Source of the DNA: Sclerotinia nivalis | Taxonomy: Eukaryota; Ascomycota; Leotiomycetes; Helotiales; Sclerotiniaceae | Direction: 5' to 3' | Assembly (NCBI GenBank): GCA_029531795.1 | Contig: JAPEIS010000007.1 | Coordinates: forward strand, 2,356,001 to 2,420,000 | Length of the DNA stretch: 64,000 bases | In this document: positions 12,101-53,848 of the stretch, in pieces | How positions within the stretch are numbered: position 1 is the stretch's first letter | Layout: the number at the start of each line of letters is the position of its first letter | Translations under genes and position numbers: made by a program | The notes under the pieces: generated by a model | Database searches by the model: none | What the model was told of the DNA's origin: nothing | What the model saw: only the letters and a program-made list of their open reading frames with translations

Positions 12101-12266
12101 GCGTTTTTCTCCAGAATGACATATTTTCCATAGGGCTAACATCAAATGCTCCAGCTTTTTCACACTTACCGGTTCCTATTCAAGATTACCACATCATCAT
12201 CATCAGATCACGCGTTGATTGAATATATCTCATCAATACTTATCAGCGCGTCGTTGACACTCTACA
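9169..12266. other. Intergenic and long leader of the fork-head gene
   Basis: About 3.1 kb without a convincing gene. The right half (about 10660-12266) is pyrimidine-rich and resembles a long 5' untranslated leader, with many short upstream ATGs and open frames (for example around 11062-11370 and 11517-11879). These have no protein-like composition. Left of that are the MID1 3' region and the presumed promoter. Confidence 0.5.
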
Positions 12267-14561
12267 ATGTCTTCGTCGCGTTACACGCAGCAGCCGCTGC
12301 AAATTTATCAAGACCCCGTCACATCTTATGATAGCGCACCAATGCCGTCGACGAAAAATTCAAGAAATTCAAAAAAAACTTCGCCCTTGAGAACAATCAA
12401 GAACAACGGCTCGAAACGAAATGTTATCTTCAACCCACCTCAAAATGGACCTAGCAAACACTCACCGCTGAAGTCGAATAACCACATATCAAGTTCGCCT
12501 TCGAGAGCACCATTTGGCAATAAGTTAAACATGGTACCGATGCCACCACCTTCAGGATCACGATACACTACCGACTCGATTGCGAAGAAACAACCCTTTC
12601 AACCTAAATATAAGAGTGCCCCACAAAAGGCACTATTCACCACTTTCATGAACACTCAACCTCAAGGAAAAGAGAACTATCCACATTCTATGTATTCGTC
12701 GCATTCGCAACCACATTTTCGCGACGATTTTTCGAGCAGCAACTTTTCCTTGGAAGGATTGTATGGTCGAAAACCTTCACTGAAGCGCTCTTTGATGGAC
12801 GCAGCCCCCATTCAGGAAGCGAAAGTTCAGAACAAGTCGAAAGCAGAGGAGGGAAATGACACATCAGGACCTCGAGAACTTCCGGAACCGGACTCATTCC
12901 CGCCCATTCACGATGATGGCTTCAAACCTTCTCACAGTTATGCTCAGTTGATTGGCATGTCGATTTTAAGAGCTCCGAAACGACGCCTCACTTTAGCGCA
13001 AATTTACAAATGGATATCTGATAACTACACCTTCTACAATGCAGCGGACGCTGGCTGGCAAAATAGCATTCGTCACAATCTTAGTCTTAACAAGGCTTTC
13101 GTAAAACAGGAGCGACCAAAGGATGATCCAGGAAAAGGCAATTATTGGGCAATTCAACCAGGAATGGAATATCAGTTCATCAAGGAGAAGACTACACGGA
13201 AACCTGCAGGTCCCAACGAGAATCTCCCGGTCTTAAATACAGCCCTGACACCTGTCGACCCACCAGAGCCTACACCACCCACGCCAATGTTTAAGGATCT
13301 ACCATCGTCTAGCCAAGATGTATCATTGCCAAAATCAACGTTTACCTTGCCAGACAACGAAGTTCCTCTTATCCCAGAGTTATCCTCAGATGCTACAATT
13401 CCTGCTTCAGAATTCAATCAAGAAGTTGACGAGGAGGAAGACGCCCCTCCATCTTCCCCGCAAATGCAATCATCCCCACCAACAGGATTGATGCATTCTT
13501 CTCCTCCTGTGGTTCGCCATGCATCGAGACGTAATCATACACCACCTCCTGTTCCACGCTTTCCATCTTCATCACAGGCTAGATCACACAAACGAAAGTT
13601 TGCGTCCATGGATGATAGTGGGTACTTTTCATCACTTGAATCTTCGGCTATGAGACCAAATGGTGTCAGTCGGTTGCTAACATCTGAAGCTGATCGACCA
13701 AGGATTAAGCGTGGCCGAGCTGAGGAGGAAATCGCTCGTCTTCGTGGTTCCTCGTACGATAGCCCCAGCAAAGGCAGGTCGTTTAGTGGATTCGTTCCTC
13801 CATCATCTTCTCCATTACGTCGAGCTCAGCCACATGACAACTATCAGATGCTGCCACCCCTTACTCCTGCTGTCAAGTTAAAGGCTCCTGTGAAACCACC
13901 ACCATCAATATCTCCAAACACAAACCTTCGCATGCATCGTGATAGGGTTAGGGAACTCGTTGGCTCGCCAATCCGTGGCCTAACCGTTCTCGAAGATAGT
14001 GCATGGAGTCCAGCTTTCAATCTTGACAATAATTCCTACATGTTTTCCGGTTATGTACCAGACTTTGATATATTCCAAGATTCTACAGCATCCTTTCCCG
14101 GTACAAGCAATGGATCACCAGAGAAGCGATCTGCTAGGAGACCTCGTTTGGATCGATCGAGGTCTGCAAATATTTTGTCCGATGTGACAAATTCCAACTT
14201 GAACAAGAGCGTCACCTCTACACCAATTCTCAAACTTACACCTTCGCTTGGTGGACCTTCAACATATCTATCCCCAACGAAAGGAGGTTTGAACTTCATG
14301 GATTCTCCATGTAAACCAAACAACAACTCTCCTTTAAAATTCGATTCCCCAACCTTGAACCTTGGTAACTTCGACCTTCCTCAGGATGATTTGTTCAACT
14401 CCGAGTTCCTCACTGAAGATTTATCGGATTATGCAGGTTTTGATATTACACAGCGCTTCCCAAAAATTGGATCCGGAGCTCAGCAACAACAATCAAGGAA
14501 TACATCCAAGAATCAACCACCTCGACCATCGATGGGCCGAAGTTCTACTTCACGCTTCTAG
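12267..14561 (+). CDS. Fork-head transcription factor, HCM1/Sep1 type
   Basis: Nuclear winged-helix regulator. The single exon encodes 764 aa. The fork-head domain lies at about aa 222-312, with recognisable helices and the recognition-helix motif [15 protein letters not shown], followed by [11 protein letters not shown]. No FHA domain is seen. That argues for the HCM1 (S. cerevisiae) / Sep1 (S. pombe) branch, which controls late cell-cycle, spindle and septation genes, and against the FHA-bearing FKH1/FKH2 branch. The rest is disordered and rich in Ser, Pro and Asn, with many SP/TP dipeptides, as expected for a CDK-regulated factor. An N-terminal [19 protein letters not shown] stretch precedes the domain. 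The start context (ctacaATGtct) follows a long leader. The branch assignment within fork-head proteins is inferred; the family is certain. Confidence 0.93.
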
Positions 14562-22401: not shown

Positions 22402-23504
22402 TCTAAGGAATCCCTTTTCCCACTCTTCAAATTTTATAGCAAAGGTTCGAAATATTAAAGAGGCAAAAGGGTCCTCCTCCTCTTTCATTGAGAATCTTTT
22501 TCTCGATTTCTTCCACCAGCCAGTTATACCTCACCTACCTAGGACCTTTCCTATCATATCATACCTACATACCTACATACCTAGTACTTTGTTGTACTTG
22601 ACTTTTTATTATTAATTATAATTATTTCCAAGCAAGGCTGTGTGCTGTGTGTTGTGTGCTTTAACTTACTTGTTTGTACTCAAGCCGCAACCATCAGCTG
22701 CTACTTACTCCCTCCTAAACTACCTACTCCCTACTTACAATACTTATTACCCACATAGGTATTCGATATTCGATATTCGATATTCGAGGTATTCGTACTC
22801 CGTCCTCCGTCCTCCGTACACTACCCTAAAGAGTAGAGAGAAGGGTAGAAAGCACTACAGACAGAAATTACTACGGAAATTACCACTTCCTTCATACATA
22901 CAGAAATTACTACGAGTCTCAAAGCCTGCTCCTCCTACTACGTACAAAACCTACCAAAACTATCCGCACGGGATCCATAACTACATTTTTCAAGTCTACC
23001 GGTGAATTAGTCTCCAAATCACCTAGCACCCACCACACTGCCAAGTTAGAACGCCCACTATCGATTCGGACATCACATAAGCTTTTTTTTGGTGGCAGAG
23101 AAATCAAAATAGAAATAATTCCAATTTCCTAATAATTCGAGATTCCGACTTCCTTCCAACTTCATTTCCACTTCAACGAAAAGTTTCAAATAAAGATTCG
23201 ATATTTTTTAAGGCAACCCAACAACAATATAAAGAGTCAACCTATTCACTTCAACAATTGAATCGACATAGTTTGATTTATAATTACTCAAACGGACTTT
23301 CCACTTTCAATCTTTTTCCCGCAGACGTCCCACAAGTCACAACTTACAAGCCCACACGCCCACACGCCCACACAAAAACACGAAAACACAAATTTCCAAC
23401 AAAGCACGGGCATTGCCCGCTACCTCCGCCTTTGGCGGATATCTTTTTACTGATTGCAATCGATACGAAGCGCATCTCAAACTCTTCAAGAAAACAGAAA
23501 TATC

Positions 23505-25153
23505 ATGGCTTCAGTCGCGGTACCAAGAGATCTCGTCGTAGAGAAGGCACAACCCTCACCCACGCCCTCTTTACCTTCTTCACATGGATCACCTCAATCT
23601 CGCCCTACAACCTCAAATATGAGCGCTATCACAAGTACCGAAAATCTAAGTATGAATGGAACTCTTACGCCACCTCCTCCGGCGGTTCTCAAGGCAGCAC
23701 CTATGCCTACGACTGCTGAGAAGCCCTCTATGACGAAACGTCTGACAAGAATGTTCTCCACAAAGGATCCGATGAGGTCGGAAAGTAACATCTCGTCTAG
23801 TGCAGCATCTGCCTCTTCGACCCCAAAGCCTGCAGATGGTGCCACATCCCCATCATCGTCGAGGCCTGGCTCCCTGTCTCGAAAGACTTCCTCACAAGAA
23901 AAGAAGAACCCCTCCGATAAACCTAGTCCCCCATCTACGACGAGGGATAGAAATGGTTCGACAAAGGACAAAAAGGCACCAGCAAACCATCAACGATTCC
24001 TTACCATGCCTGATGTGCAAGGAGGTCATGAGCATCATCTGAAGAGTGCCAAGAGACAAGAGAAACTTGGGGAAATGCTACGAGGTTTGATTAGCGGGAA
24101 GGCGAAACAATCCGAGGCCCATGAAGGCGAACAACAACTCTCACTAATGTCAAACTGGGTGGATCAGCTAAAGCGTGAGAAAGAATCATTGGCCACGGAA
24201 AAGAAGGGTGGACCCAACGCGACAGCGACATTGGTGGATAAATATGGAAAATGTACTGAAGTTATTGGCCGTGGTGCTTTCGGAATTGTCAGGATATCTC
24301 ACAAAAGATCCGAACAGGGAACAGAACAACTCTATGCCGTGAAGGAATTCCGAAGAAGACCCGAAGAGAATGAAAGAAAATACAGCAAAAGACTGACTTC
24401 CGAGTTCTGTATATCTTCCTCATTACGGCACCCTAACGTTATACATACGCTCGATCTCCTCCAAGACTCGAAAGGGGATTATTGTGAGGTTATGGAGTTC
24501 TGCGCAGGTGGCGATCTTTATACTCTAGTCCTTGCAGCTGGAAAGCTCGAAGTTGTAGAAGCGGATTGCTACTTTAAACAGATGATGCGTGGCGTCGAAT
24601 ATATGCATGAGATGGGAGTTGCCCATCGAGATTTAAAACCAGAGAATCTTCTTTTGACTACACACGGCTCTTTAAAAATAACAGATTTTGGGAATGGCGA
24701 ATGTTTTCGAATGGCGTGGGAGAAGGACGCACACATGGTAACTGGGCTTTGTGGTTCCGCTCCTTATATCGCCCCCGAAGAGTATATTGACAAAGAATTC
24801 GACGCAAGAGCTGTCGACGTTTGGGCAACAGGTGTGATTTACATGGCAATGCGTACAGGTCGTCACCTTTGGAGAGTCGCGAAGAAAGATGAAGATGAGT
24901 TTTATGAGAGGTATTTAGAAGGACGAAGGGATGAGGAGGGATATGCTCCCATCGAGTCATTACATCGGGTATGTCTCCCATTTGCAAAATCTCGTACCTA
25001 CATGAGCTAACATCAAACAAGGCACGCTGTCGTAATGTTATCTATTCGATCCTTGATCCTAACCCTCATCGTCGTATCACTGCTTCGCAAGTTCTCAAGT
25101 CTGAATGGGGCCGTGAGATAAAACTTTGCCAAGCCGGTGAGGAAGGACTCTGA
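23505..25153 (+). CDS. HAL4/SAT4-type serine/threonine protein kinase
   Basis: Protein kinase of the fungal HAL (halotolerance) group. In yeast, Sat4/Hal4 and Hal5 stabilise potassium and nutrient transporters at the plasma membrane. Exons 23505-24968 and 25022-25153 are joined by a 53-nt intron (GTATGT...AAG), giving 531 aa. The kinase domain begins near aa 245, with glycine loop IGRGAFGIVR, Lys in YAVKEF, catalytic loop HRDLKPENLL and DFG replaced by DFGNGECF (DFG intact). APE is present as APEE, followed by DVWATGVIYMAM. All catalytic residues are intact. The N-terminal 240 residues are a Ser/Pro-rich disordered region ending in a short charged helix, usual for this group. I chose ATG 23505 (tatcATGgc). 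The frame is open further upstream but has no ATG there. The substrate is inferred from the family only. Confidence 0.92.
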
Positions 25154-45270: not shown

Positions 45271-46160
45271 AAGTTGTAAGTAGAAAAAGACAACGACATT
45301 CCAATATGCCATCTGACAATACAACCTAAGTTACCCAACGGCCCAATATCCGAGTTCAAAATAGAAGACCTCAAGAGCTGTTGGAACATCAGCATTAGGA
45401 GATCAGAATTGTATAATGACTCTCCTATGCGACAAGGCAAGCGAAATTCTTATGGGCACATTGAAATTTCCAGTATCAATTGTAGAACTTTTCTGATGTC
45501 CATGCAGGAAGACTCGATTTCGTTTTCCACGGCGATTCAACTGCCATGTACTATTGCCGCAAGTCCTGGAGATATAATAGCGAAGGGAATTTTTGTTGCA
45601 CAACACAACCAACTCCAAATCGACGTTTCTGAACCAGTTAACTCCATGTCAATCGTACGAGACATGTACCGTACCATTCATGTAAGTTTTGTTCCTATGG
45701 CTAGCAAAGAAGATTTTGATCAAGTCGACAAGAATCTACGGACGCAGTTTCCGATACCTTGCTGGCTGCAATGATAGCTGGCACATTAGTCAAAGGTCAA
45801 CACGCATAAATTTGTAAGTTCAACGTGACTGATGGCAAAGTAAACAATGATTCATCTGGTGATGTCAACATGCCTCGGCTTAAGTCTGAAGCTTCAGCTC
45901 TCTGAGTTGTTTTCACAGCAAAGACACTGACTGCATCACTGATGGAGTCTCTTGAAGAATGGGTCGACTCCACCTCACCACACCGCGCAAGGTACGACGA
46001 CGTGTTTATGGATCCTCGGGTATCGCCCGACATCGTGCAGACCTTGCGACTCGCTTCTCAAGCTGGCACGTCAACAAACGGTGATACCGAGTGCTGGGTA
46101 TATTGTTGTGGCCGTGCCAGTTTTGTGCCACGAAAGCTGACGGATCTTAACACGGTGAGT
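45271..46160 (+). other. Unassigned coding-like stretch
   Basis: A plus-strand frame stays open for about 168 codons (45271-45774), unusually long for this AT-rich DNA. It has protein-like composition (for example IQLPCTIAASPGDIIAKGIF, DMYRTIHVSFVPMASKEDF) but no good ATG near its left end. A second frame (45942-46158) starts at an ATG, contains EEWVDSTSPHRARYDDVFMD and ends in a consensus GTGAGT donor. The two might be pieces of one gene, possibly decayed. I recognise no domain, and the minus strand also has moderately long frames here. Confidence 0.25.
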
Positions 46161-46837
46161 AAAATAGGATGGCTGTGGATAGCAAAAACAAATACGTGCA
46201 GATGAAGCTATGGTATGGGAATAGTCCCAGCTTGTATTGCATATTCAGACTTTCCGAGCGAACCACTCTTTGAAAAGGGCGGGGTTGGGGTCGCTACGCC
46301 TGAAGAGTGGTTGAAACGAAACGAAAAAAATATTCATTCGAGGTACAGAAAAAGTGCAATTGATCCGTGATGTTAATGTAGCTGTAGCCCTTGTACCGCA
46401 TCGGCGGCACCGTCCTGCAATTACCGGATAAGCACTTATGGAGATTTCCTGCCACCTTTCGAAGTTTCGGTACGTGTTCAATGATACATTGATACAACAC
46501 CGACGAAGAAAAGATGGCTGGAGAGTTACGCTCGGTCAATAGGAAAGAAAGTAACATGATTGATTGTTTCCACTTGAGAAACTTCGGTTGGATCAGAAAA
46601 ATTCAGAAGGTCGGATATTTGCCAAGAATTTGCGGAGTAAGGTAGGTTTGACGCTAATGGATAAACTAGTCTCGGACGGGAGTCGGAAGCGGCGCTGTGT
46701 CAGAAAGGACAGAAATTTAAAATGAGGTCGAACAAGGTACCTGAACTTTAACAGGGTTTACCATGGCAACTAATGAGATAGCTTGATAACTTTGATAGCA
46801 ACCCCTTACTAATTGGAAGCTTGGACGGTGTGAGTGA

Positions 46838-46912
46838 AGAAGTGTGAGTGAAGTGTGTGAGTGAGTGAAGTGTGTGAGTGTGTGAGTGAGTGAAGTGTGT
46901 GGGTGAAGTGTG
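46838..46912. repeat. GTGAGTGAAGTGT imperfect tandem repeat
   Basis: Interleaved GTGAGTGAAGTGTGTGAGTG units, at least five partial copies, purine/T-rich, in non-coding DNA. Confidence 0.8.
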
Positions 46913-47891
46913 AGGGAAAAAAAGAAGAGGAGAACCGAGGTGCAAATTAAAGGAAGCTTTCAGATCACCCAAATTGCGTCTTTTTCCTTATCAACCAACT
47001 CGTATCGGTATCAATTCTAATGATGTAAGATGTTATCAAAATTATCTAATGAAGCTTACAAGTGTGGCAGCTTCGTATGCAGCTTGATATGAATAATTGA
47101 ACTTATCCAAATCCAATTGATTGATTGATTTATGAAGCTCTGGATTCATGTTCCTTCTGCATCATGCCTACTGAAATCTGATTCGAGTTTTTGCTGTCTT
47201 TTACACATGTGAGAACTTTAGAAGCTCGGGTAGAGAGAGCTACAGCAGGCAAGCCTACGTTGAGCTTACCGAGCTTACACAGCTTACACTCCATTTCATC
47301 CCATCATCCAATGAATTGATTCCACGACACGAGTCACGTCAAGGATGTTACAAATTGTGAGGAGCTGAAGCTCAAGGGAGATTGGATTTGATTTCTTAAC
47401 AGACCACTTAAATTCTTAACCTTCATGTCGAAAAGTTATTGAAACTTTGACTTATCCACATTAGACATGGTCCGAGGTACACGGCCAAATTGTGAGGCTA
47501 CCTAGATTCTTTTTTTGCTGGTTGTTGTTGTCGTTTTGATTTGCAGAAAGTTGACTAAGATATCCAACCGGAGGATTCCTTCTATCGGAAACTTACAGAG
47601 CACAGTTGGAAGTAAAAGCTGCGAATCTACGATGGCTGGGGGCCGAGAACATGAACACGAAGATCCACTGATGCCCCATACCACATTCAGCAGGGAAGCG
47701 GAGTCTAGGATAGTGGAGAGCTTGTCGATAATGGAAGGACAAGAAAAAGTCAAGACTTCAAGATGAGACCGATTACAGCAGAACCAAAGAAATTCATGAG
47801 AAGATCTGATACTGTATGCTTTACACATGATATTAGTGAACAACTGAAGAACCTCTGTAAATCCATAGTCGGAATAGTTTAAAATGTACCT

Positions 47892-47921
47892 AGTTGAGTT
47901 GAGTTGAGTTGAGTTGAGTTG
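47892..47921. repeat. (AGTTG)6 microsatellite
   Basis: Five perfect AGTTG units followed by AGCTG. Confidence 0.9.
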
Positions 47922-48445
47922 AGCTGTGTTCACGAATGGATCCAACTCCCAACTCGGTGTTCTGTTGGTACTGATGTTTAGACTATCTGGGGTAGCTGAG
48001 ATACCCGGTACAGACCATACCATACATACCATAAAGAGAAGGTACCTAAGAAATCAAAAGAAAAGAAATTGGAGCCTACCAAACTTCAACCAGTTTCCTG
48101 ATTCCATTCATCATTCAAATCAAAAATTCAATAGATAAAATGAAATTACCGGTACCTCAAAAAAAAGAACAGCGTGACAAATATCATTTTTCTTTATTTC
48201 CGTCTCATCACACGAAAAGTCACTTTTATCACTCTTCAATCCATCCATCCCTCATCCATCTATTCGTCTGTTCATCCATCATAAAACAACCCTCTTCCCT
48301 CAGTTTCTGCACTGTAACTTGGCTTCCCTTCGATGTAACTATCTGAATCAGTGAGGTAATTACTCAATATAGTTAGTAATAAATAATACCATCCAAAAAA
48401 AACAAAAGTGAATGTAAACAAACAAAGAAATAAAAAAAATAAAAA

Positions 48446-48899
48446 TGCCCGTATAATTTAAAATTGAATTACCCTGCTGCATCGATTACACCAGATTGAA
48501 CATCCAACCACCTTGATTTTCTAAAAAAAAAAAAAAAAACTTCTCCCACCACCACCACCCTTCCCTCTCAGTCTTCTTTTCCCACCTCCACCCCACATCT
48601 ACACAAATACAACCTCAAAATCGCAATTCCCAATCCCCAATCAACTTTGCATACACACCTCTTCATACCTACACTACTTTTTTGCACATCGCAATAACAA
48701 TATACTCTTGCTACTTTTTGTTCAATTTGAAAGACCTCAATAATTTTTTGAAATTTGAAAGTCGAGTAAAGAAACGTTCAACCAAAAACGTTTTCTTCCC
48801 TCTTCCTTCTACCTCAAGAAGTAGAGATCCTTCTTGTGATATCCTTTCGGCACGCTGAAAGGTATTCGAGAAGTGTTCTCGCATTGAAAGGTCGTCAAC
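48446..48899 (+). promoter_or_regulatory. HEX1 upstream region / ATG-free leader
   Basis: Contains a 17-nt poly-A run (48523-48539) followed by a C/T-rich tract, the common look of a fungal core promoter and transcript start. From here on no ATG occurs in any frame until an intronic one at 49632. The transcript start cannot be placed exactly. Confidence 0.45.
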
Positions 48900-51064
48900 C
48901 TGGACTTTGACGCTCGAGTACCGATCCCCTTCAGCATCTTCCCGTCGTCGTATAGAAGCGACGCCGCTGCCCAACCCATACATATCACCGAGACTCACGT
49001 CGAAGGTGAAATTACTTTACCCCATCATCACGAGCGCGTCGGACGGGAAGGTCAAGAAGAGGACGCTCAATCTTCTTACTCTCAACAGCAACATCATCAA
49101 CTTGAACAACAACACGCCCTTCCTCATCCCCCCCCTCCTCAACGACCACAGGAGTACTTAGAAGAAGAAGAAGAGATTCATATTATCCGTGAAGAAGACC
49201 GACGTTCTGAATACCGTCCGAGCCGACAAGAAGAAGAAGAAGTTTATATTCGTGAAGAACGCAGGTTAGTAGTAAAAATCCATTTCTTTACAATTCAATT
49301 CACCATTTCCCCCAAAATCCACTATCAATAAATCAAAAGGAGAAAGAAAAAAAAACACCTACACTTTCAAAATCGACTTGCCAAAAAACACCCACAAAAT
49401 CTCTACACCTACATTTTCACCCCTTCACCTCTTTTTCACATTTTTTGTACCATTTCCTATTTTACTCGTTATACAACATTTTAAGATCTGGCCATATCGG
49501 AAGGTCCCAGTCCCCAATTAACAATTAATTGGGTCCTTCTGAGACAAATTTGCCAGCTTTCTTGTTTTTTATTACGACGCACAGTCCAACGATCTTCGGT
49601 TTAGTCCCAGCCCCCCTTTACCCCAAAATACATGGGCTATTTTTTCTTTTAGTGTTGACACAGTAACGCTCACCGTTTAATTTTCTTCATTAACTGACCT
49701 TTTGTTTTCTTTACCTTCTTTTAGACCAGAACACAAACACAAACACCACTCTGCTTCCTTCGATCTTAACACCCCACACCATCACCGACACTTCGAAGCT
49801 TCTTTCGATAGAGAAAGTGATCATCACCATAAACACACTGAAGTTAATAAACACACTGAAGTTAACATCGAACTTCCTAGTCGTGAACATCATCATCATC
49901 ACCATCATCAACGTCGTCCATCTTCTGAGGTAGACTTCCAACTTGAACGTACACGTCAACCTCGTTACGAACCTTCCGAAGTTGAATCTCAATACTCTGA
50001 TCCTTTAAAGAGTCCTACCGAGACCAACATCGATTTCGTCGAACGTCAATATCGTTCCCGAACTCAACCAAGCTTCAAGGAAGACACTGTCATCGTCGAC
50101 CCTCCCAAATCTCGTGCTTCTGAACCAAGATACATCGAGGAGACCCGCATAACCGAAACTACTATCGTCCCACCAGCTCCTAGATCTACTCACTCTCACG
50201 AACCCAAGTCAACCTTCCACGAAGAAAAATTCGAGGAAGTCGTTCACGTCAAGCAACCTCGCACACCAGCTAGATCTACTTTCACTGAAGAAGTTCGTGA
50301 AAGTCAACTCGTCAAGTACTCTCCACCCGCACCCAAATCCACCACAAGTTTCAAACCAGTCAATATCGAAATGGGTTACTACGATGATGAAGGTAAGCTT
50401 CTTGTTTGTTTTTTTCTCTAACCCCCTTATGTACCCTAAGCATCATCATCAGGGAACTACCACTCCTTGCGTGGGGAGTATTTCCATGGACACGGGAAGG
50501 ATATTTACCAGGACCCAATTGACTCTCTCGATTTAGCCGGAGCCCCAGCCGTTGCTGCTCCAAAGCAACCTGCCAATACCGTTACCATCCCTTGCCACCA
50601 CATCCGTATGGGTGACCTCTTGATGCTCCAAGGACGTCCTTGCCAGGTTATCCGTATCACCACCTCCGCTGCCACTGGCCAACACCGTTACTTGGGTGTC
50701 GACCTCTTCACCAGACAATTGAATGAGGAGTCGTCTTTCATCGCCAACCCAAGCCCAAGTGTTGTCGTCCAAACCATGTTGGGACCAGTTTTCAAGCAAT
50801 ACCGTGTTCTTGATCTCCAAGACCACAGCGGTAAGTTTTCTCCATCCTACACAAGTATCTCATTCTAACGTTGAATCAGTTGTCGCCATGACCGAGACCG
50901 GAGATGTCAAACAAGCCATTCCCGTTTTGGACCAATCCAACCTCTGGACCCGTCTCAAGGAGGCCTTCGAAGGTGGACGTGGTAGCATCCGCATCATGGT
51001 CGTTGCCGATGGAGGTCGTGAGATCGCCGTTGACATGAAGACCGTCCACGGATCCCGTCTATAG
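48900..51064 (+). CDS. Putative N-terminally extended HEX1 isoform (non-AUG start)
   Basis: Model: 48900-49264, 49725-50392, 50453-50830, 50880-51064, giving 531 codons in one frame. The first intron (460 nt, donor GTTAGT, acceptor TTTTAG) joins in phase 2 and keeps the frame open on both sides; the frame then passes straight through the canonical HEX1 ATG at 50371. The last upstream in-frame stop is TGA 48885-48887. There is no ATG in any frame of the spliced sequence before 50371, so initiation would have to use a near-cognate codon. CTG at 48900 (gtcaacCTGg) has A at -3 and G at +4. The 337-residue extension is hydrophilic, rich in His, Glu, Arg and Ser (a seven-His run, EEEEE, STF/PPAPKST repeats) and has no recognisable domain. 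It might tether or regulate Woronin bodies. The coding frame is seen directly; its translation is inference. Confidence 0.5.
50371..51064 (+). CDS. HEX1: HEX1 Woronin body major protein (short form)
   Basis: Self-assembling core of the Woronin body, the peroxisome-derived organelle that plugs septal pores after hyphal wounding. Exons 50371-50392, 50453-50830 and 50880-51064 give 194 aa (Neurospora HEX-1 has about 176). The first exon encodes MGYYDDEG, matching the classical HEX-1 N-terminus. The body shows the eIF5A-like fold signature TIPCHHIRMGDLLMLQGRPC, then STS-type AATGQHRYLGVDLFTRQL and VVAMTETGDVKQAIP. The C-terminus is Ser-Arg-Leu, a peroxisomal PTS1 signal, as in all HEX1 proteins. 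ATG 50371 (cgaaATGgg) is the first ATG of the transcript downstream of the ATG-free leader. Compared with the Neurospora protein, the linker after the first exon (YHSLRGEYFHGHGKD) is longer. Confidence 0.97.
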
Positions 51065-52083
51065 ATTTCCTGTACCAGTCATACCATGGCGTCCTACCGA
51101 CAAATATCCAGTGGCCTTCCAGGGTGGAGTCTCTTTTCTTTTTCATGATTTCTTTGTGCATTTTCGGAGGGAAAATTTGAAACGTATGATGGGGGTAGAT
51201 ATGGATTCAGATTGATTAATGAGGGATGAAGTTTGGATGATCGGGTTTTATCTGGTCTTTCGGATTATTTTAGTTTAACGATGTATTCAAGTGGTTCCTT
51301 GATGCCATTCATGTTGATACTACTTCGGTGGTATTAGCATGATGGTTGAGAGGGTTCTTGATGCTGAGGTCTTTTTCTACTTTGTAATTGTGTAAATAGG
51401 AGAAGACCCAGAATGAAAACACGCTGCTTGTCTTTTACTTAAATTTTTACTTTTGATGATTGAATTCCATCGTGTGACTGGTAATATTTGAAAGAATGTG
51501 ATTTCGGGAATGTACTCAGCCATGATCAAAAATGTACACACCGATTCCCGAGGGTGACAATCATTCAATCTTTCATAAATAAAACCTGTCATGAAATCGG
51601 AGGGTGGGGGTTACCCAATTCCACCCATCAAGGTATTGGAACCTATTCAGGTAAGTAAGTCTTGAAGAACACAAGGTACATGTACACGAGGTACACCTAG
51701 GTACCTTCTTTATCTAGATAGATATGCAATCATACACATGATACCATGATACCATTTAAGTTTTAACTCTATTTCCCCGCTATTTGTATAGATAGATAAG
51801 GAGAGCTTATGTGAGGGAACTTTAGCTAGATTGATTCATTCAATTTGTCTTTTTTGGTTTCTATATTGATCGTGCTCTTGCGCTTGGTATTGATGCTTTT
51901 TTTAGATTTGCTTTGTGTTCTAAACTCCTTTGAAATCTTGTCTTGGACGTTCCTGGTCTTGCGTTCTTTTCTATATTTCAACTCATATCACAATCATAAA
52001 TCCCGCACCTCACCTCCCTAAATCATAAATCTTAAACCTCACCACAAACCTCACCCTCGCAAACCAAAAAAAAATCCCCCAAA
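51065..52083. other. Intergenic between HEX1 and bleomycin hydrolase
   Basis: HEX1 3' untranslated region followed by the promoter of the next gene. An A/C-rich leader ending in an A-run and ccccc lies just before its ATG. No gene is seen. Confidence 0.6.
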
Positions 52084-53848
52084 ATGGGCTCAACACACTC
52101 AACCCCACAATCTACCTCTACTTCCCCAGCAGAAGCTCAACGTATCCTCCTCGAAAAGATTCAAAATATGGAACTCCGATCTGCTCAGGATCAGGAGGAT
52201 GATTATGTTCATGTTGATGAGAAGGGTGCTGGGGGCCAGACTTCGCGCGCACACTGGACTCCATTAAGTGCTGCACGGGTTGAGAAATGGGAAGAGGAAC
52301 TTTTGAGTGATCCTAAGAATCGGTATGTTTGATTTATTTAAGTGTAAGCTTAGGTTGAGTTGAGGGGAAGGGGAAGAGGAAGAGGAGGAGGAAGAGGAGA
52401 TGGAAATTAAGAGGAGAGGGGAGGAGAGGATCAGGGGAAGGGGGTATCGGCTGTTTCTGCATACTCCAGCTTCAATATACTAACAACTCAAACCCAGACT
52501 TGCTCTCAGTGCTCTCAGCGGTGCGGACCCCCGAACCGTCTTAACATCCCGCACAACCCTCAATCAAGACCAACAAATTTTCTCCGTTAAAATCCCCTTT
52601 GAAGGAGCACCCATTACAAATCAAAGACAATCTGGACGATGTTGGTTATTTGCTTCTACCAATGTTTTTCGAGTTGCGATCATGAAACGACATAATCTTA
52701 AGGAATTTGAGTTATCCCAAGCGTACCTGTTCTTTTGGGATAAATTGGAAAAGGCGAATTGGTTTTTAGAACAGATTCTTGATACAGTGGGAGAGGACTT
52801 GGATGGAAGATTGGTGCAGAGATTGATGGAGAGTCCAGTTAGTGATGGTGGGCAGTGGGATATGTACGTTTCTCACTAAATGATATTAACCTTGAGCTAA
52901 GATTTTAATAATTTTGCATATAGGGTTTACAACCTCGTCCATAAATATGGACTCGTACCACAAGTTCTCTATCCAGATAGCTTCAATGCTCAATCATCCT
53001 CTGTGATCGACAGTATCATCACAACCAAACTTCGAGAAGATGCTCTCAAGTTAAGAGTTGCTGCTGCCTCAAAGTCTACACATACCTTGAACAACATGAA
53101 GGAAAATATGGTTCGCCAAATTCATCTCATACTTACTCTTGCTCTTGGTCCACCTCCCCCTTCTGATACTGCTTTTACATGGCAATATCTAGACAAAGAT
53201 GGCAAAGCTCAAGAATTAAAGACTACACCTATCGAATTCGCAGAGGAATTGAATTCTCCAAAATCAATTCGAATCACCAATTCTACCGTCCATGATATGT
53301 TTTCTCTAGTCAATGATCCAAGAAATGAATACAATACCCTCCTCACCGTTGATCGTCTCGGCAACATCGTAGGTGGTCGTCCCATCACCTATGTCAATGT
53401 TCCTATGTCCACCATGAAAAACGCCTGCATCTCCATGTTAAAAGCCGGACTCCCAATATTCTTTGGATCCGACGTAGGAAAATACAGCAATTCCCAAAAA
53501 GGAATCATGGATCTCAATCTCATCGATTACGAATTAGGCTTCAATGTTAAACTCGGCATGACGAAAGCACAACGTCTCATGACGGGCGAAAGTGCAATGA
53601 CTCATGCGATGGTTCTCACGGCGGTGCATCTCGATGAGCAGGGAAAGAGTGTAAGGTGGAGAGTACAGAATAGTTGGGGTGAGGGCGCGGGAGATCACGG
53701 TTGGTTTGTTATGAGTGATGGGTGGATGGATCAATTTGTTTACCAGGCGGTGGTGGAACCGAGGTTTGTGGGGAAGGAGGTTAGGGATGTTTTGGGGATG
53801 GAGCCGAAGGTTTTGAGGCTTTGGGATCCGATGGGTGCTTTGGCTTAG
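52084..53848 (+). CDS. Bleomycin hydrolase (C1B cysteine aminopeptidase)
   Basis: Cytosolic papain-like cysteine aminopeptidase of the Lap3/Gal6/BLMH family. It forms hexameric barrels, trims peptides and hydrolyses homocysteine thiolactone and bleomycin. Exons 52084-52322, 52498-52863 and 52924-53848 join in phase, giving 509 aa (yeast Lap3 about 480). The catalytic triad is intact: Cys in NQRQSGRCWLFAS, His in ESAMTHAMVL and Asn in QNSWGEGAGDHGWFVMSDGW. The C-terminus ends in MGALA. In this family the last residues project into the active site and set the exo-peptidase mode. The N-terminal 60 residues are hydrophilic (MGSTHST...) with no mitochondrial presequence. MGS could be a myristoylation site, but that is speculative. 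The first intron (175 nt) is longer than the others and purine-rich. Confidence 0.95.

Follow-up and report, generated by a model that had tools for sequence, protein, structure and literature searches.

The HEX1 locus of Sclerotinia nivalis raises the question of what is encoded by a long reading frame that contains no ATG and runs into the HEX1 start codon. HEX1 is the textbook self-assembling organelle core, and how the number, size and membrane attachment of Woronin crystals are set is, to our knowledge, an open matter. In the window, meaning the whole stretch of 64,000 nucleotides that was analysed, every feature of the locus lies on the plus strand. HEX1 begins with the codons for MGYYDDE (50371-50392; ATG context ATCGAA-ATG-G), continues in a core exon (50453-50830) and closes with an exon (50880-51064) that ends in SRL, followed by the stop codon TAG at 51062; translation of the exons gives a protein with the MGYYD start and the C-terminal SRL signal. 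The exons match the close relative P0002 at 94-98% (over the core and the 3' part of the extension described below), and the core of P0002 matches the Hex1 structure PDB 1KHI with an E value of 7.1e-80. The eIF5A-like core is recognized in P0002 by PF21485 above its cut-off, PF01287 remaining below cut-off. The HEX1 locus was the sole match when P0002 was used to search the 50.3 Mb genome to which the window belongs at E≤0.001. In the region 50393-50536, intron 1 of HEX1 has a second usable acceptor, an AG ending at 50536, with the product MGYYDDEAGAPAVAAPK; P0002 and a second close relative, P0003, bear this shorter MGYYDDEAGAPAVAAPK form, in agreement with known alternative splicing of Hex1 (PMC7762394). 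The next gene downstream (52484-53848) encodes an intron-split peptidase C1-like protein (PF03051), and a short run of GAGTT repeats (47896-47925) lies upstream of the HEX1 leader.

Upstream of ATG 50371, removal of one intron leaves the HEX1 frame open over 341 codons, the first of them at 48888; the last in-frame stop is TGA 48885-48887. The 460-nt GT-AG intron (GTTAGT...TTTTAG, 49265-49724) separates the first coding exon of the extension (48900-49264) from its second part (49725-50370), which is in frame with HEX1; both parts have homologues. In P0002 and P0003, which are spliced, the intron is missing and the protein is joined at the same place (YIREER...RPEHKHKHH), and another homologue, P0025, reads through it. 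The nearby ATGs are at 48445, just outside the region, at 49632, within the intron, and at 50371, the HEX1 start itself. The preliminary description of this DNA thus holds for the single 460-nt intron, for the open frame since TGA 48885 (which it put at about 342 codons), and for the absence of ATG from all frames of 48446-50370 outside the intron, a total of 1,465 spliced nucleotides that includes a leader (48446-48899) upstream of the candidate start codon.

Judged by its conservation, the extension is a real protein, homologous across Pezizomycotina. A search with the spliced 535-residue reading, which scored only the 7,992 candidates with the most shared words, found 883 homologues at E≤0.001; many of the best 120, which were listed, align over the full query, with identities down to about 40%, and the nearest named matches among them are from Botryotinia, Ciborinia and Monilinia, the last a genus of the Sclerotiniaceae. 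A search with an Aspergillus HexA core produced 841 matches among proteins whose length was 0.55-1.75 times 558 residues, and of these the best 120 are chiefly from Aspergillus, Penicillium, related Eurotiomycetes and lichen fungi, and many of these 120 have the N-terminus NLDFDARVPIPFSVFPSSYRSDA or a close form of it. Thirteen N-terminal segments used as queries gave 87 matches, including Aureobasidium and Hortaea. The extension is thereby found in five classes, each checked by one genus: Leotiomycetes (Monilinia), Sordariomycetes (Bombardia), Eurotiomycetes (Penicillium), Lecanoromycetes (Teloschistes) and Dothideomycetes (Aureobasidium). These homologues, drawn from the best 120 of 883 and the best 120 of 841 matches, are related to one another, so counts made on them are not independent. 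An LDF motif is near-invariant in alignments of 20 and of 39 sequences, and the exchanges between classes are conservative (D/E, I/V, S/T, R/K). No domain above cut-off was found by Pfam in the extensions of P0002, P0012 and P0082, and the composition (R, E, S, P, V and T each at or above 8%) suggests disorder. The extension of some species contains repeats some 21 residues long, built around TVDPP, the copy number of which varies (seven in P0012, four in P0082, three in P0031, one in P0002 and none in the other four counted). Neither a profile search nor the pattern DF[DE]AR[VI]P[VI]PF detected a relative in viral contigs or genome contigs.

The exclusion of ATG is beyond chance. Dinucleotide shuffles of the 1,465 spliced nucleotides contained a mean of 9.5 ATGs, and not one of the 2,000 made was free of them; for the extension alone 5.6 were expected, and 0.1% of dinucleotide shuffles had zero. 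The depletion that had been claimed is therefore upheld, but the expectation of 15-20 ATGs that accompanied it is too high, since the shuffles give about 9.5. When codons were swapped among identical residues, which keeps both the protein and its codon set, 4.3 out-of-frame ATGs were expected in the extension and none is present (P 0.0016-0.0017). The choice of codons has a corresponding bias: NAY codons (Tyr, His, Asn, Asp) before G end in C in ten of ten cases, and in 26 of 52 when another base follows (Fisher p 0.0035). Out-of-frame ATGs are not depleted in the HEX1 core (six, with 4.2 expected), nor in any of 13 control frames from the window, each at least 250 codons long, for which the lowest P is 0.155; these are stop-to-stop frames rather than known genes throughout, with Pfam domains confirmed for three. 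Forkhead and protein kinase domains are found in control frames at 12258-14558 and 23454-25007.

The same exclusion is seen in relatives as a lack of methionine. Among the matches listed, 240 proteins were considered and 46 without one of two motifs (LDF and MGYY) were set aside; of the 194 that have both, 192 have no Met in the extension. In total, the 194 extensions contain three Met in 45,573 residues (two in P0025, one in P0184), and the cores of the same proteins contain 703 in 39,803. In the variable segment that directly follows the HEX1 AUG, 74 of 10,637 residues are Met (190 proteins), a rate of 0.70% from which about 317 would be predicted in the extensions; disorder bias alone as the cause of the Met absence was rejected on account of this neighbouring segment. 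Part of the scarcity may nevertheless be a matter of composition, because the extension is poor in Cys and Trp as well (0.03% each). Among the 42 left-out proteins with MGYY and no LDF motif, four have a single Met within the 100 residues that precede MGYY, and each time it is the residue with which the model begins. We take the avoidance of AUG in every frame for a trace of ribosomes that would scan across the extension towards the HEX1 AUG.

The start of the extension can be placed. From the last stop, the codons of the window are TGA AAG GTC GTC AAC CTG GAC, and the CTG at 48900-48902 (context GTCAAC-CTG-G) is the only near-cognate codon of exon 1 past TGA 48885 that has A at -3 and G at +4. 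It is also the only in-frame CTG, TTG, GTG or ACG among the 337 codons of the extension, in which CTG accounts for one of ten Leu codons, compared with none of 16 in the HEX1 core. The leader has six in-frame near-cognates (CTG 48474, 48477 and 48855; ACG 48774 and 48852; GTG 48873), all separated from the extension by TGA 48885. Conservation begins at the same point: in the 194 proteins, columns 4 to 15 residues before the Leu of the motif hold 0.3-1.1 bits each, the third, second and first residues before it hold 1.96, 2.71 and 4.12 bits, and values are high thereafter, the motif being fixed by the search pattern and the residues before it free.

The residue that precedes this Leu was scored among the matches listed in 259 homologues (327 proteins, less 61 without the motif and seven without a scorable preceding residue), and it is N in 239, T in 10, K in six and I in four. 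The codons for N, T, K and I all have A as first base. Predicted splicing could alter this residue in named gene models, and the contig-derived set agrees with them (57 scorable proteins from the N-terminal segment search: N 44, K 5, I 4, T 4). As the residue varies and the first base of its codon does not, the base at -3 of the CUG looks as if it is under nucleotide constraint, with relatives read here as residues and not as codons. At the start position itself, 264 of 266 motif-bearing proteins have Leu; the exceptions are P0283, which starts at that very position with M, and P0312, which starts one codon earlier and has Q. Gene callers may open predicted proteins at ATG, GTG or TTG, so these two proteins support the position of the start and not the codon. 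CUG 48900 is the likely start of the long form.

An interrupted long hairpin (48821-48882) lies in the leader 17 nucleotides before the CUG. RNA of 48820-48920 folds into it at -32.4 kcal/mol (z -2.55), which two of 200 shuffles equalled, and it persists in the fold of 48540-49264. The leader of P0012, read in another frame, has SFRHVERHSRRDLA where the window at 48842 has SFRHAERYSRSVLA, with 10 of 14 positions identical, which suggests that the leader is conserved as nucleotides and that the coding frame begins near the CUG. Rfam has no gathering-level match at 48700-49100 (at E≤10, one sub-threshold minus-strand match to GP20-a), and at 46000-53000 (E≤1) gives one sub-threshold minus-strand match to MIR815; both are taken as chance. 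In fold and position the leader fits the text description of the hexA RNA motif (PMC5640933), in which a long hairpin, interrupted by two small internal loops, precedes a tail with variable third positions, the comparison being made by description and not by alignment; the authors of the motif report at least seven of 19 examples in the opposite orientation. The leader hairpin resembles the hexA motif and may be the same element, in which case the coding tail of the motif would be the start of the extension.

Taken together, these features make it very probable that one mRNA encodes two proteins, a long HEX1 started at CUG 48900 and ordinary HEX1 started at the first AUG by leaky scanning. Of the ribosomes that scan the message, a minority would initiate at the CUG, possibly helped by the leader hairpin, and make a product of 531 residues (337 of extension and 194 of HEX1); the remainder would scan about 1 kb that is free of AUG in all frames and initiate at 50371. 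A dual-start gene had been proposed in the preliminary description, and the proposal gains from the conserved frame and the loss of ATG in relatives, which are seen at the protein level and far beyond the Leotiomycetes, as well as from a start that can be placed at CTG 48900.

The explanation that best survives beside leaky scanning is that two transcripts with separate start sites are made, the long one started at the CUG and the short one translated directly from the HEX1 AUG. Pairs of promoters that give long and short transcripts are common in fungi. If each protein had its own transcript, however, neither the avoidance of AUG in every frame along the entire extension nor the near-total absence of Met from relatives would be needed, and we regard this arrangement as improbable.

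Initiation at an ordinary AUG in an upstream exon, joined at the acceptor AAAG ending at 48890, just before GTC GTC AAC CTG, is a less probable explanation still. Named gene models do reach the motif through such lead-ins, and the hexA hairpin is reported to contain a sequence like a 3' splice site, splicing control having been considered by its authors (PMC5640933). The AUG-bearing lead-ins nevertheless vary from model to model (for example MKVANLDF in P0087), and at least 16 of the listed models are deposited as partial (eight from the search with the 535-residue reading and eight from that with the HexA core). One shared AUG exon that is missing from the models was considered and rejected, because the lead-ins differ, although some of the lead-ins in named records could be real. 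Against an upstream exon there is also the evidence of contig-derived proteins. Among the matches listed, 11 of 12 that bear the motif run unbroken from leader through extension to the end of HEX1, on contigs of 1.4-2.5 kb, with no Met before MGYY other than the called first residue; as they have no introns, we infer that their source is cDNA-like assemblies. The twelfth is P0025, which reads the intron. In the intron-less P0002 and P0003 the leader runs directly into the extension, so in those molecules no intron ended at AAAG|GTC. Both proteins have W at the position of TGA 48885, and P0002 also at that of TGA 48837, the simplest reading of which is that the gene caller of the source read TGA as Trp. 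Finally, an upstream AUG would not require the purging of AUGs from the extension. A study of Verticillium put forward inaccurate annotation as a possible reason why Hex1 is predicted to have hypervariable N-terminal extensions (PMC7762394); by the present data it is the AUG lead-ins, and not the extension, that appear to be the error in annotation, which implies that many deposited HEX1 and HexA models would carry a wrong first exon.

That the whole region is a conserved, untranslated RNA element is scarcely credible, for although the leader upstream is indeed structured and shows conservation at the nucleotide level, the extension is conserved in the manner of a protein across classes, with conservative exchanges, and its frame is unbroken into HEX1.

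If translation does start at both codons, both forms keep the core and the SRL tail, and should therefore reach peroxisomes, where they could co-assemble. The long form might then be a minor subunit of the Woronin-body core, its extension limiting the growth of the crystal or linking it to the membrane and tether machinery. WSC, once recruited by HEX assemblies, forms an envelope around them and brings in LAH-1 (PMC2690989), and the extension could act at the recruitment of WSC and LAH-1 or in limiting crystal growth. In its broadest form the proposal is tentative, and we would not bet on all of it: that Woronin bodies of filamentous ascomycetes contain two HEX1 species from one mRNA, in a ratio set by the CUG and the conserved hairpin, with the rare long form as a doping subunit that, through its Met-free extension, restricts the growth of the crystal or anchors it to the membrane and tether machinery, the true start having been missed by the databases. 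A low-level second form of HEX1 from the same mRNA would, if real, be a direct candidate for setting the number, size and attachment of crystals. A limited literature search, with older papers outside its scope, found no report of non-AUG HEX1 and no paper on ribosome profiling of Neurospora hex-1, and no HEX1 band near 60 kDa, the size estimated for the long form, is described in the literature covered.

Known systems resemble parts of this arrangement. The hexA motif and the hairpin described here each place an interrupted long hairpin in a Hex leader ahead of a conserved stretch with variable third positions, but the authors of the motif thought of splicing control (PMC5640933), whereas our reading is of a non-AUG start. 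The isoforms of HEX1 and HexA that arise by alternative splicing (PMC7762394) are likewise two HEX1 forms from one gene; as described there, they differ by about 20 residues within the AUG-started protein, whereas the form proposed here adds 337 residues before the AUG. Fungal 6-phosphogluconate dehydrogenase has a peroxisomal isoform with a non-AUG start (PMC7214817), and in that enzyme, as proposed for HEX1, such a start leads to an N-terminally longer protein. The part added to 6-phosphogluconate dehydrogenase carries a peroxisomal targeting signal, whereas HEX1 has its SRL tail in any case and would gain an extension that is long and in part repetitive. The closest precedent is cpc-1 (CPC1) of Neurospora and other Pezizomycotina, in which an N-terminal extension is made from conserved near-cognate codons (PMC5487733). 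Both genes have a long, stop-free, in-frame extension that is deeply conserved in Pezizomycotina, both have starts that automatic annotation fails to resolve, and the cpc-1 near-cognates have A at -3 and G at +4, as does the HEX1 CUG in the window. The differences are that cpc-1 encodes a regulator and has two AUG uORFs, whereas HEX1 is a crystal-forming structural protein with no AUG in 48446-48899. Conserved non-AUG extensions are thus a known kind, of which HEX1 would be a new member; it would add a long and deeply conserved fungal case, and the signature of AUG exclusion by which it is recognized could reveal others.
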